This document shows positions 16,293-23,603 of a DNA stretch of 64,000 bases, piece by piece; position 1 is the first letter of the stretch, and each line of letters begins with the position of its first letter. This stretch comes from Herbiconiux oxytropis (GTDB lineage: Bacteria > Actinomycetota > Actinomycetes > Actinomycetales > Microbacteriaceae): positions 124,001 through 188,000 of the forward strand of contig NZ_JANLCK010000007.1 of the NCBI RefSeq assembly GCF_024979315.1. The letters are read 5' to 3'. Position numbers and translations under genes: made by a program. The notes beneath the pieces were generated by a model, which was given only the letters and a program-made list of their open reading frames with translations, searched no databases and had not been told where the DNA came from.

Positions 16293-17831
16293 ATGACAGG
16301 CGAACGCGAATCGATCACCACGGTCATGGCGAACGGGGGGCGACCCCCGGGCAGCCGCCGTGAGATCAAGATCATCGACACCACGCTGCGCGACGCGCAC
16401 CAGAGCCTCTGGGCCACCCGGATGCGCACCGAGCACATCGTGCAGATGGTTCCCGACTTCGACAAGGTCGGCTTCGAGCAGGTCGACCTCGTCGCCCCGA
16501 TCCAGTTCGACGTGGCCGTGCGCTACCTCAAGGAGGATCCGTGGGAGCGGGTGCGGCTCGCCCACCAGCACGCCCCGAACTCCACCTTCCGGGCCCTCAT
16601 CCGCTCGAAGAACATCGCGGCCTTCGACTTCCTCGCCGACGACGTGATCGAGGCCTGGGTGGAGAGCCTCTACAAGAACGGGTTCCGCATCATCGGCTCG
16701 TTCGACGGGCTCAACGACGTCGACAACATCGCTCCCGGCCTCATCCGCGCCAAGGAGCTCGGCGCCTCGACCTTCGGCGCCGTCTCGTTCTGCGAGAGCC
16801 CGGTGCACACCGACGAGCTCTTCGTGGCGAAGGCGATCGAACTGATCGAGAAGGCCGACGTCGACGCCATCATGCTGAAGGACGCGGGCGGCCTGCTGAC
16901 CCCGGATCGCATCCGCACCCTCGTGCCCGCGCTCAAGAGCGTGATCGGCGACCGGCCGCTCGAGATCCACAGCCACTGCCTCACCGGGCTCGCCCCGCTG
17001 GTCTACCTCGAGGCCGTCGAGCTCGGCGCCGACGCCCTGCACACCTCGATCGCCCCGATGGCGAACGGCGCCGCCCAGCCCTCCACGCAGGACATCGTGA
17101 GCGACCTGCGCGCGCTCGGCTACGTCGTGAACGTCGACGACGAGCGGATCGAGACCATCAGCCGCCAGCTCATCGACATCGCCGAGGCGGAGGGCAAGCC
17201 CGTGGGCCACCCGGTGGCCTACAACGGTCTGCACTTCATGCACCAGCTGCCCGGCGGCATGCTCTCGAACTTCCACTCCCAGCTCGCGACCGCCGGCCTC
17301 TCGCACCGATTCACCGAGCTCCTCTACGAGGTCGCCCGGGTGCGCGAGGAGCTCGCCTTCCCGATCATGATCACGCCCTTCGCCCAGTTCGTGGGCACCC
17401 AGGCCGTGATGAACGTCATCTCGGGCGAGCGCTACAAGCTCGTGCCGAACGAGATCAAGAAGTACGCCCTCGGCTACTACGGTGAACTGCTCGGCCCCAT
17501 CGATCCGGAGGTGCTCGAGAAGATCATCGCGAACGGATCCTCCACGATCGATCTCGTGCCGGCCCCGATCGAGCCCATGCTGCCGGATCTCCGGCGCCGC
17601 TTCCCCGACGAGGGGATCGACCTGCTGCTGCTGCGCGCCATGTTCGCGGGCACCCAGGTCGACGAGATGATCCGCACGGTCAAGGCCGGCGGCAACCCCG
17701 ACGAGGTCTACGGCCCCATCCTCGGTCTCGTCAAATCGCTCTACGAGAAGAGCTCGGCCGGCCGGCAGTCGCTGACCGTCGGCGAACTGCACATCAGCAT
17801 CACAAAAGGAGACAGTGAACATGCCGCTTGA
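16293..17831 (+). CDS. Biotin-dependent carboxyltransferase subunit (transcarboxylase 5S / oxaloacetate decarboxylase alpha-like)
   Basis: 512 residues. Pyruvate-carboxyltransferase TIM barrel: IIDTTLRDAHQSLWATRMRT at the N-terminus, a LKDAGGLLTP strand carrying the catalytic-lysine loop, and the metal-binding IHSHCLTG (His-x-His), then a PYC_OADA-like C-terminal domain. The family moves CO2 from carboxybiotin to a ketone-type acceptor (pyruvate in known members). Canonical DGHQSLLATRM and HCHATTG are changed to DAHQSLWATRM and HSHCLTG, so the acceptor may not be pyruvate. AAGGAG lies 11 nt before ATG 16293. It overlaps the biotin carrier gene by 11 bp. With the BCCP and BC genes it makes a complete three-subunit carboxylase; the downstream CoA-transferase and thiolase suggest a 3-oxoacid product. 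Confidence 0.9.
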   Translation: MTGERESITTVMANGGRPPGSRREIKIIDTTLRDAHQSLWATRMRTEHIVQMVPDFDKVGFEQVDLVAPIQFDVAVRYLKEDPWERVRLAHQHAPNSTFRALIRSKNIAAFDFLADDVIEAWVESLYKNGFRIIGSFDGLNDVDNIAPGLIRAKELGASTFGAVSFCESPVHTDELFVAKAIELIEKADVDAIMLKDAGGLLTPDRIRTLVPALKSVIGDRPLEIHSHCLTGLAPLVYLEAVELGADALHTSIAPMANGAAQPSTQDIVSDLRALGYVVNVDDERIETISRQLIDIAEAEGKPVGHPVAYNGLHFMHQLPGGMLSNFHSQLATAGLSHRFTELLYEVARVREELAFPIMITPFAQFVGTQAVMNVISGERYKLVPNEIKKYALGYYGELLGPIDPEVLEKIIANGSSTIDLVPAPIEPMLPDLRRRFPDEGIDLLLLRAMFAGTQVDEMIRTVKAGGNPDEVYGPILGLVKSLYEKSSAGRQSLTVGELHISITKGDSEHAA

Positions 17832-18372
17832 CCAGCCCGACATCAAAGAACTCCGAGCCCTCGTCGACTGGGTCAACCTCACCGACGACGTGCGCGAACT
17901 CTCGATCAAGTTCGGCGACGTCGAGCTGTTCGTGTCGCGCGACAGGCAGGCTCCGACCGCTGCGGCGCCTGCTCCGGCTCCGGCCGTTGCGGCGCCTCCC
18001 GCGCCGGCTCCCGCCCCCGCTGCTGCACCGGCGCCCGCTGCGGTCGCCGCCGCAGCTCCGGCTGCCCCCGCTGCACCTCCGGCAGCCGCCGCTCCCGCCG
18101 CCGCCGCCTCTGGTGGCCTCGGCGCCGACGAGGTCGCCGTCAAGGCGCCCATGGTGGGCACCTACTACTCCTCCCCGAAGCCGGGGGCACCGTCGTTCGT
18201 CTCGGTGGGAGACACCGTCACCAAGGGCACGGTGCTCGCGATCGTCGAGGTGATGAAGCTCATGAACAACATCGAGGCCGAGGTCGACGGCACCGTCACG
18301 CAGATCCTGGTCGAGAACGAGCAGGCCGTCGAGTACGGCCAGCCGCTGCTGGTGATCAAGCGCCATGGCTGA
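17821..18372 (+). CDS. Biotin carboxyl carrier protein (AccB-like)
   Basis: 183 residues. N-terminal region like AccB (PDIKELRALVDWVNLTDDVR), a long Ala/Pro-rich flexible linker (about residues 45-100), then a biotinyl domain with KAPMVGTYYSSPKPGAP and the biotinylation site EVMKLMNN, target Lys146. It carries CO2 between the biotin carboxylase and the carboxyltransferase encoded on either side. ATG 17821 is preferred over GTG 17815 because AGGAG sits 9 nt upstream of the ATG but only 3 nt before the GTG. It overlaps both neighbours (11 bp and 8 bp), implying fixed stoichiometry. Confidence 0.92.
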   Translation: MPLDQPDIKELRALVDWVNLTDDVRELSIKFGDVELFVSRDRQAPTAAAPAPAPAVAAPPAPAPAPAAAPAPAAVAAAAPAAPAAPPAAAAPAAAASGGLGADEVAVKAPMVGTYYSSPKPGAPSFVSVGDTVTKGTVLAIVEVMKLMNNIEAEVDGTVTQILVENEQAVEYGQPLLVIKRHG

Positions 18373-23030: not shown

Positions 23031-23063
23031 CCGGGATCCGACCCCTATAAGAGAGGAACGACG

Positions 23064-23603
23064 ATGAACAATGCTGCAGAAGCCACCCCCGACGAGGCCG
23101 CGATCCCGTATCGGGGTGAGCAGCCCTTCGGCATGGTCGACGACCTCGTGGTGCCCGGTGCCCTCTCGCTCGACGACGACGAGCGGTTCTGGGTGCCCCA
23201 GTCGAAGGACGTCTCGTTCAAGCCGCTCGTGCTCTCGGTGAGCCAGGGCTACTTCGTGAACGTGCTCCGGGTGCGCAAGAACGGCATCCTGTCGCGGCAC
23301 CGGCACGCGGGGCCCGTGCACGCCACCGTGCTGCGCGGTCGCTGGCACTACCTCGAGCACAGCTGGTGGGCGGAGGAGGGCTCCTACGCGTTCGAGCCGC
23401 CGGGAGACATCCACACCCTCGAGATCCCGGACGACGTGGAGGAGATGGCGACGCTGTTCCACGTCACGGGCGCCTACATCTACGTCGACCCCGACGGGAA
23501 CCCGACGGGTGTGGAGGACGTCTTCACGAAGATCGAGAACGCGCGCGCCCACTACGAGCGCGTGGGGCTCGGGGCGTCGTACGTGGAGCAGTTCATCCGG
23601 TGA
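23064..23603 (+). CDS. Cupin dioxygenase, 2,4'-dihydroxyacetophenone dioxygenase / acetylacetone-cleaving type
   Basis: 179 residues. Single cupin barrel with an apparent three-His metal site, H79 and H81 in SRHRHAGPVH and H117 in PPGDIHTLEIP, the facial triad known in the diketone-cleaving enzyme Dke1 and dihydroxyacetophenone dioxygenase, which cleave C-C bonds next to carbonyls. Length and the GRWHYLEHSWWAEEGSY segment fit that family. It is the last gene of the carboxylase operon, 33 bp after the thiolase. It may cleave a dicarbonyl or hydroxyketone to an acid for the CoA-transferase. Exact substrate unknown; a non-catalytic cupin is possible. Confidence 0.8.
   Translation: MNNAAEATPDEAAIPYRGEQPFGMVDDLVVPGALSLDDDERFWVPQSKDVSFKPLVLSVSQGYFVNVLRVRKNGILSRHRHAGPVHATVLRGRWHYLEHSWWAEEGSYAFEPPGDIHTLEIPDDVEEMATLFHVTGAYIYVDPDGNPTGVEDVFTKIENARAHYERVGLGASYVEQFIR

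Follow-up and report, generated by a model that had tools for sequence, protein, structure and literature searches.

A probable biotin-dependent ketone carboxylase operon in Herbiconiux oxytropis and a candidate route from levulinate into the beta-ketoadipate pathway

The 64,000-nucleotide stretch of Herbiconiux oxytropis DNA analysed here (the window) contains a cluster of eight genes on the forward strand, encoding a carboxyltransferase subunit (CT), a biotin carboxyl carrier protein (BCCP), a biotin carboxylase subunit (BC), the biotin transporter component BioY, subunits A and B of a 3-oxoacid coenzyme A (CoA)-transferase, a thiolase and a cupin (Table 1). An earlier reading made from the letters alone (the sequence-only reading) had assigned these families and described the first seven genes as overlapping or nearly so; open reading frames (ORFs) and profile matches confirmed both points. 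The overlaps were 17 bp between CT and BCCP, 8 bp between BCCP and BC, and 4 bp each between BioY and subunit A, subunits A and B, and subunit B and the thiolase, and the gaps were 10 bp between BC and BioY and 33 bp between the thiolase and the cupin. The seven genes from the ATG of the CT at 16293 to the stop codon of the thiolase at 23030 form one tight run. The CT matched PF02436 (95.5 bits) and PF00682 (56 bits), and narrowly exceeded the cut-off of the NCBIfam domain PRK09282, pyruvate carboxylase subunit B (412.3, cut-off 402). The top NCBIfam matches of the thiolase were 3-oxoadipyl-CoA thiolases, at scores below cut-off (439.8 vs 605; 432.1 vs 597). The nearest relative of the CT found, with 99% identity, was in a Herbiconiux metagenome-assembled genome (MAG). 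As the adjacency of CT, BCCP and BC is repeated at most relatives, and 20 of 40 related loci add a CoA-transferase and a thiolase (see below), the arrangement is not due to chance, and the eight-gene stretch is a real operon.

Table 1. Genes and sites of the operon and its surroundings, in window positions
Feature	Position	Strand	Evidence or proposed role
Carboxyltransferase subunit (CT)	16293..17831	+	PYC_OADA/HMGL-like; proposed levulinate carboxyltransferase
Biotin carboxyl carrier protein (BCCP)	17815..18372	+	TIGR00531 143.4 vs cut-off 115.2; EVMKL biotinylation-type motif in translation
Biotin carboxylase subunit (BC)	18365..19768	+	PRK08591 667.6 vs cut-off 597
BioY (biotin transporter S component)	19779..20447	+	PF02632 115.8
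3-oxoacid CoA-transferase A, PcaI-like	20444 (ATG)..21208	+	TIGR02429 356.7 vs cut-off 128.5
3-oxoacid CoA-transferase B, PcaJ-like	21205 (ATG)..21864	+	TIGR02428 288.4 vs cut-off 243.55
Thiolase, PcaF-like (3-oxoadipyl-CoA thiolase proposed)	21861..23030	+	PF00108, PF02803
Cupin, 2,4'-dihydroxyacetophenone dioxygenase family	23064..23603	+	PF12973 61.9; HxH and later His aligned
IclR-family regulator, divergent from CT	15425..16201	-	PcaR family score 98.3 vs cut-off 284.75 (below)
Sigma-70-like promoter match TTGACA-16-TATTAT	16195..16222	+	Start of IclR-CT intergenic region; 11/12 consensus bases, consensus match only
Luciferase-like flavin monooxygenase	7796..9019	-	Possible upper-pathway gene
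Major facilitator superfamily (MFS) transporter	9016..10362	-	Possible upper-pathway gene
Short-chain dehydrogenase/reductase (SDR) oxidoreductase	10408..11184	-	Possible upper-pathway gene
Zn-dependent alcohol dehydrogenase	11297..12448	+	Possible upper-pathway gene
SDR oxidoreductase	12445..13218	+	Possible upper-pathway gene
Quinone-oxidoreductase-like protein	13218..14219	+	
Flavin reductase	14287..14862	+	Profile matches

A maximum-likelihood tree was constructed from 81 CTs, including 65 rows of the window type, six mostly kinase-linked CTs, eight PycB, OadA or transcarboxylase 5S rows, and the pyruvate carboxylase of the window's own genome; left out were L003, which duplicates the window CT, CT fragments no longer than 400 aa, and two CTs not caught by the motif filter (L083 and L086). 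The 65 window-type CTs and the six others formed a clade of 71 of the 81 rows with an ultrafast bootstrap support (UFBoot) of 100, the eight PycB/OadA/5S rows formed a separate clade (UFBoot 96), and the pyruvate carboxylase of the window genome also stood apart from the 71-row clade. The window CT thus does not group inside the two-subunit pyruvate carboxylases, a placement that, on its own terms, would have refuted the sequence-only reading. The six-row sister clade (UFBoot 95) consisted of five kinase-linked CTs (L074, L075, L082, L084 and L085) and L069, whose gene context is not known. The window CT was sister to, and not inside, this kinase-linked clade, which is called HpeCBA-like here after a characterized ketone carboxylase (see below), with no authentic HpeB among the compared sequences. 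A further deep CT branch, L091 from Polynucleobacter (G023), carries the W motif described next.

The motifs DAHQSLWATRM and HSHCLTG, which the sequence-only reading had taken as a hint of a non-pyruvate acceptor, were confirmed in the window CT. The residues aligned with the known catalytic set (RD..Q, R, KD, HxH and T) are all kept, as is the Arg aligned with the pyruvate-binding Arg, with residue roles as in the Rhizobium etli enzyme. The motifs WGGAT, RGQN..Y, TPTSQ/TPSSQ and AISSM of the pyruvate enzymes are replaced by AP-IQ, RSKN..F, TPFAQ and SIAP in the window CT. The W of DAHQSLW is common to the window CT and L074, L075, L082, L084 and L085, where it follows HQS, NQS or PQS, and TPF also occurs in L074 and L075. 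The conserved positions listed had been selected as those on which 93% or more of 51 core rows agree, and so speak weakly for motif constancy. A search among the conserved basic residues of the CT for an anchor of a distal carboxylate gave none that could be assigned. The motif changes suggest that the CT is not a usual pyruvate enzyme; they do not name the acceptor.

An ordinary pyruvate carboxylase is encoded elsewhere in the window genome (an 852-aa frame cut by the contig end, 1137 bits), and 18 of 24 CT-carrier genomes, including that of the window, contain a single-chain pyruvate carboxylase over the cut-off. Among the other six carriers, G004 showed two contig-end pieces and G021 a broken run of fragments; G018 has a separate PycB-like CT, G019 and G020 have separate OadA-like CTs (all three placed by the tree), and G023 has nothing but a further CT. 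As CT, BCCP with its biotin motif and BC are encoded together, and the CT is unlike the pyruvate enzymes, the three window subunits very probably constitute a biotin-dependent ketone carboxylase; the tree, the motifs and the separate pyruvate carboxylase all support a ketone acceptor.

The partners of the carboxylase bear on its product. Subunits A and B of the CoA-transferase and the thiolase of the window were 77, 79 and 66% identical to their counterparts next to a PcaR regulator (323.4 vs 284.75) in the same genome, and 73, 75 and 65% identical to a second set in that genome, located about 6 kb from genes for an intradiol dioxygenase and an iron-containing alcohol dehydrogenase (Fe-ADH) on the same strand. 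Both related thiolases also score under the PcaF cut-off (441.1 and 456.4 vs 597). The listed plasmid relatives of subunit A number 25, and three were inspected (69-75% identical); one lies beside pcaC/pcaG/pcaH, one in a catA-catC operon and one beside pcaF. In a subunit A tree of 54 rows, four of which are second copies of the same gene, the window protein fell in a clade of 19 with ring-cleavage-linked genes (UFBoot 79), away from ScoA/SCOT.

Two other arrangements were found among the relatives. In the Corynebacterium type, the order is thiolase, PcaR (331.5 vs 284.75), CoA-transferase A and B, an MFS transporter (best family TIGR00883, 348.5, below the cut-off of 443.45) and CT-BCCP-BC, and the CoA-transferase belongs to the family of the window enzyme on a different branch. 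The transferase-PcaR-thiolase order is also present in the ring-cleaving Corynebacterium loci L098, L100 and L108, while the ORF selection missed members in L099 and L107. In the Halomonadaceae type, a CoA-transferase pair of the glutaconate transferase family is accompanied by a true PcaF (670.7 in Salinicola and 679.5 in Vreelandella maris; cut-off 597), and in V. maris a PcaDC-like gene (377, below 390), pcaH (336.2 vs 296.4) and pcaG (244.4 vs 126.25) come next. As two CoA-transferase families in separate lineages point to one common function, the breakdown of 3-oxoadipate, the product of the carboxylase is most likely 3-oxoadipate.

Gene context was counted at 70 loci, of which 25 with less than 5 kb on one side were left out, and partners were sought within 10 kb. 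Core loci were defined as those with a CT of at least 62% identity, and 40 of these were flanked by 5 kb or more on each side. Linked genes for a CoA-transferase and a thiolase were present at 20 of the 40 core loci, 11 of the 20 being from Corynebacterium; among the loci under 62% identity, L052 has a linked transferase pair. Relatives of the Corynebacterium-type MFS transporter were found at 21 of the 40 core loci (17 of them Corynebacterium), the Salinicola CT has a TRAP large permease (DctM) gene as a neighbour, and the Caballeronia CT an SSF symporter gene. These transporters of acid-carrying families beside some CTs fit an acid substrate.

The distribution of the CT was investigated in a single draw of 101 Corynebacterium genomes, including the centre genome G008, itself a CT carrier. 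With thresholds of E <= 1e-20 for the intradiol dioxygenase and at least 68% identity to the CT-linked protein for a pca-type transferase A, the CT was present in 9 genomes, the dioxygenase in 20 and the pca-type CoA-transferase in 29. The 29 transferase-bearing genomes divided without overlap into 19 with the dioxygenase and 9 with the CT, leaving one (G061) that had neither; among the other 72, none carried the CT and one (G096) the dioxygenase. Fisher's exact test gave 4.8e-6 for the association of CT with transferase and, among the 29 genomes, 1.0e-6 for the mutual avoidance of CT and dioxygenase, values uncorrected for kinship. In 7 of the 9 CT-bearing genomes, CT and transferase are no more than 18 kb apart, and in 15 of the 19 genomes with transferase and dioxygenase, a dioxygenase maps within 25 kb of the transferase. 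A looser count, based on any TIGR02429 match (53 of 101 genomes), was too coarse and was replaced by the 68% identity cut; the fetched Corynebacterium loci with transferase copies of 53-56% identity (L093-L095, L097 and L109) showed a different gene order. Two genomes outside the sample, G010 and G012, each gave one weak match to the dioxygenase, at about 42 bits.

Some carriers in other lineages also lack a match to the dioxygenase family PF00775, namely Salinicola G018, in which the CT adjoins PcaF, Polynucleobacter G023 and G127, and the Bartonella-like MAG G126, as do the nine sampled Corynebacterium carriers. In G126 the CT and a pcaI-pcaJ-pcaF run (PcaF 645.8 vs 597) are on separate contigs, and the search for PF00775 at 1e-10 in this MAG, which may be incomplete, gave no match.

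3-oxoadipate is HOOC-CH2-CO-CH2-CH2-COOH, and carboxylation next to the ketone yields it from levulinate (4-oxopentanoate). As the product is taken to be 3-oxoadipate, and carboxylation beside the carbonyl gives this compound from levulinate, levulinate is, with moderate confidence, the predicted substrate of the carboxylase, and the operon would feed the beta-ketoadipate pathway. In the proposed mechanism, BC would carboxylate biotin on BCCP with ATP and bicarbonate, the CT would transfer CO2 onto the methyl group of levulinate to give 3-oxoadipate, the PcaIJ-like CoA-transferase would move CoA from succinyl-CoA to 3-oxoadipate, and the PcaF-like thiolase would cleave 3-oxoadipyl-CoA into succinyl-CoA and acetyl-CoA, with biotin imported by BioY. 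The general order put forward in the sequence-only reading, a 3-oxoacid product that is activated by the CoA-transferase and cleaved by the thiolase, is supported. On balance we also lean towards a wider picture in which several lineages have coupled a biotin-dependent ketone carboxylase to 3-oxoadipate enzymes that were recruited separately. The beta-ketoadipate pathway would then need no aromatic ring, even in Corynebacterium species that lack intradiol ring cleavage, and a carboxylase beside pca genes may recapture levulinate arising by spontaneous decarboxylation of 3-oxoadipate.

Several observations weigh against levulinate as the substrate. The other 20 of the 40 core loci are without linked CoA-transferase and thiolase, as are five well-flanked loci under 62% identity (L056, L057, L066, L068 and L073), and the loci include near-duplicates, e.g. 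L038 and L039. In the window itself, the thiolase fails the TIGR02430 PcaF cut-off (432.1 vs 597), the IclR regulator is not PcaR by score, and the UFBoot joining the CoA-transferase to pca-linked ones is only 79; the Corynebacterium CT-linked CoA-transferase lies on the ScoA/SCOT side of the same tree. No TIGR02429 gene was found in Rhizobium G016 and Shinella G022, where other transferase families were not sought. At the Rhizobium loci L018 and L019, cupin and SDR genes precede CT-BCCP-BC in surroundings resembling sugar catabolism (Fe-ADH, a transketolase-like piece and an SMP-30 lactonase at L018, an FGGY kinase at L019), a context that levulinate does not explain. Within Corynebacterium, the 68% cut was chosen after the identities had been seen (next best per genome 56%), G061 retains the pca-type transferase without CT or dioxygenase, and CT and dioxygenase occur together in G015, which did not belong to the sample. 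The complementary pattern was not seen in the 12 other actinobacterial CT carriers searched, all of which have PF00775, and dioxygenases are likewise encoded in two halomonad carriers, G019 and G020. Absence of PF00775 as a general rule of carriers was rejected, being broken by these 12 actinobacteria, G015, G019, G020, Rhizobium G016 and G017, and Shinella G022.

The Polynucleobacter loci stand somewhat apart. High-scoring PcaI-class transferases are present in Polynucleobacter, and as the thiolase-like gene beside one of them is not PcaF, the levulinate assignment is not extended to this genus. At L056 (Polynucleobacter) a gamma-glutamyltransferase-like gene, the CT and then an NMT1-type transporter gene follow one another; L053, L057 and L068 have the same ORF-length pattern, and L055 is cut off after BCCP. 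L056 and its related loci perhaps serve a different substrate. On a plasmid of Sulfitobacter dubius (L086), a CT of 38% identity is accompanied by genes for two biotin/lipoyl proteins, a TRAP transporter and a citryl-CoA lyase; this may be a further undescribed cluster that depends on biotin.

A small neutral methyl ketone, acetone or butanone, could be carboxylated in the same order of reactions to acetoacetate or 3-oxopentanoate, followed by a ketone-body pathway through CoA-transferase and thiolase. This is close to the sequence-only reading, which had listed acetone, butanone and acetophenone as candidate substrates, and it draws on the fact that PcaIJ-type and ScoA-type transferases fall under one model (TIGR02429), the Corynebacterium transferase being on the ScoA/SCOT side, and on the alcohol dehydrogenases and the luciferase-like monooxygenase encoded upstream. 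However, it leaves unexplained PcaR, the true PcaF and pcaG/pcaH beside CTs, as well as the Corynebacterium pattern of nine genomes with CT, 19 with dioxygenase, one with neither and none with both. A neutral ketone needs no transporter, yet genes of acid-carrying families adjoin some CTs. With linked partners of the 3-oxoadipate type and acid-family transporters at several relatives, acetone, butanone and acetophenone are less likely than levulinate, and a neutral ketone is an unlikely substrate.

The true substrate might instead be a related 4-oxo acid, such as a methylated or hydroxylated levulinate, or the substrate might depend on the lineage and give 3-oxoadipate only in some. The Rhizobium and Polynucleobacter loci with their other neighbours, and the upstream oxidoreductase set of the window itself, are in line with such a substrate, whereas the near-constancy of the CT motif positions across the core group, at sites preselected with a 93% agreement threshold, speaks weakly against it; we consider it, too, improbable, marginally more so than a neutral ketone.

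A divergent three-subunit carboxylase of pyruvate or another 2-oxoacid is very improbable: the PRK09282 score just above cut-off, the retained catalytic residues and Arg, and a Caballeronia locus of the deeper group with an SSF symporter, carbonic anhydrase and bioA adjoining the CT could be read that way, but pyruvate carboxylase was ruled out as the leading interpretation by the tree position outside the pyruvate enzymes, the substituted motifs and the second pyruvate carboxylase in most carriers, and half of the core loci have CoA-transferase and thiolase partners.

The assignment of BioY to biotin supply, already made in the sequence-only reading, is supported by the genome content. No bioB over the cut-off was found in the 98%-complete genome of the window (best 31 bits vs 225), so imported biotin may be needed, with BioY as the proposed importer. 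BioY or Ecf genes lie near several relative loci; under stricter thresholds, BioY was present at 3 of the 40 core loci.

Dioxygenases of the 2,4'-dihydroxyacetophenone kind split aryl hydroxymethyl ketones, with an acid and formate as the products. The window cupin matched the structure 4P9G of 2,4'-dihydroxyacetophenone dioxygenase (3.6e-30), with HxH and the later His aligned, and related cupins occur at 5 of the 40 core loci. In the characterized enzyme the iron is described as held by three histidines (PMC4219425). By analogy, and as speculation, the cupin could provide a side route from 5-hydroxylevulinate, the hydroxymethyl analogue, to succinate.

The IclR and CT genes have a common intergenic region. 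The genes from the monooxygenase to the flavin reductase (7796-14862) may constitute an upper pathway whose end product is the carboxylase substrate. A 191-aa TsaD/TsaB-like protein (PF00814; 14862-15437, +) is encoded between the flavin reductase and the IclR regulator, an unusual site for a tRNA-modification gene, and an acetyl-CoA synthetase-like gene, labelled from its translation only, lies convergently (23610-25535, -) directly after the cupin.

The sequence-only reading had put the operon forward as the best candidate in the window for an undescribed system. This does not hold for the carboxylase, since HpeCBA is already a biotin-dependent ketone carboxylase and HpeCBA-like CTs are the nearest outgroup of the window CT. 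HpeCBA, reported in 2022 from Rhodococcus rhodochrous GD02, is described as a three-subunit, biotin-dependent phosphophenylethanone carboxylase that forms a 3-oxoacid from a methyl ketone by adding CO2 to its methyl group; it acts on 4-phospho-acetophenone (kcat/KM 34 per mM per s) and 4-phospho-acetovanillone, and not on free phenols (PMC9618137). Its cluster is described as holding kinase, phosphatase, CoA ligase and hydrolase genes, with CoA activation and acetyl-CoA release proposed (PMC9618137). XccBCA is grouped with HpeCBA as the closest known system. The HpeCBA-like, kinase-linked CTs compared here, none of them an authentic HpeB, were 35-41% identical to the window CT. AcvCDE of SYK-6 reportedly belongs with HpeCBA as well. 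The plasmid clusters with HpeCBA-like CTs contain phosphoenolpyruvate-utilising or dikinase-like genes (kinase-like in L074 and L075) or Tm-1-like ATP-binding and HAD genes. Whereas the HpeCBA cluster has a CoA ligase and a hydrolase, the window has a CoA-transferase and a thiolase, and no kinase or phosphatase was found among the 16 window genes scanned. Since these 16 genes include neither enzyme, the substrate probably needs no phosphorylation, and a full pathway of the HpeCBA type was rejected, the CT also lying in a separate clade.

PycAB (5KS8), OadA (2NX9) and transcarboxylase 5S (1RQB) are homologous to the window CT (1e-73 to 1e-80) and have the same catalytic residues, but they form a separate clade and differ in four motifs; if the levulinate assignment is correct, the label 'pyruvate carboxylase subunit B' given to this CT in three plasmid records is wrong. 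The acetone carboxylase AcxABC and the acetophenone carboxylase Apc also convert methyl ketones to 3-oxoacids with ATP. These enzymes have hydantoinase-type subunits and are not known to be biotin enzymes, whereas the eight window genes match other families, among them biotin carrier and biotin carboxylase. With the lower beta-ketoadipate pathway (PcaIJ, PcaF and PcaR) the window operon shares PcaIJ- and PcaF-like enzymes; that pathway is fed by ring cleavage, while the window version is proposed to be fed by a carboxylase. A literature search limited to open-licence papers found no levulinate-carboxylating enzyme. LvaABCDE of Pseudomonas putida (Rand 2017), for which the same substrate is established as is predicted here, converts levulinate through levulinyl-CoA and 4-phosphovaleryl-CoA to beta-oxidation, with no carboxylation step mentioned in the account of it consulted (PMC6692424). 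If the prediction is true, the operon would represent a second, CO2-fixing route for this biomass-derived acid, by one-step carboxylation in place of the phosphorylated CoA esters of Lva; pca genes would have a function in bacteria that lack intradiol ring cleavage, and the few known substrates of biotin-dependent ketone carboxylases would be joined by an aliphatic keto acid.

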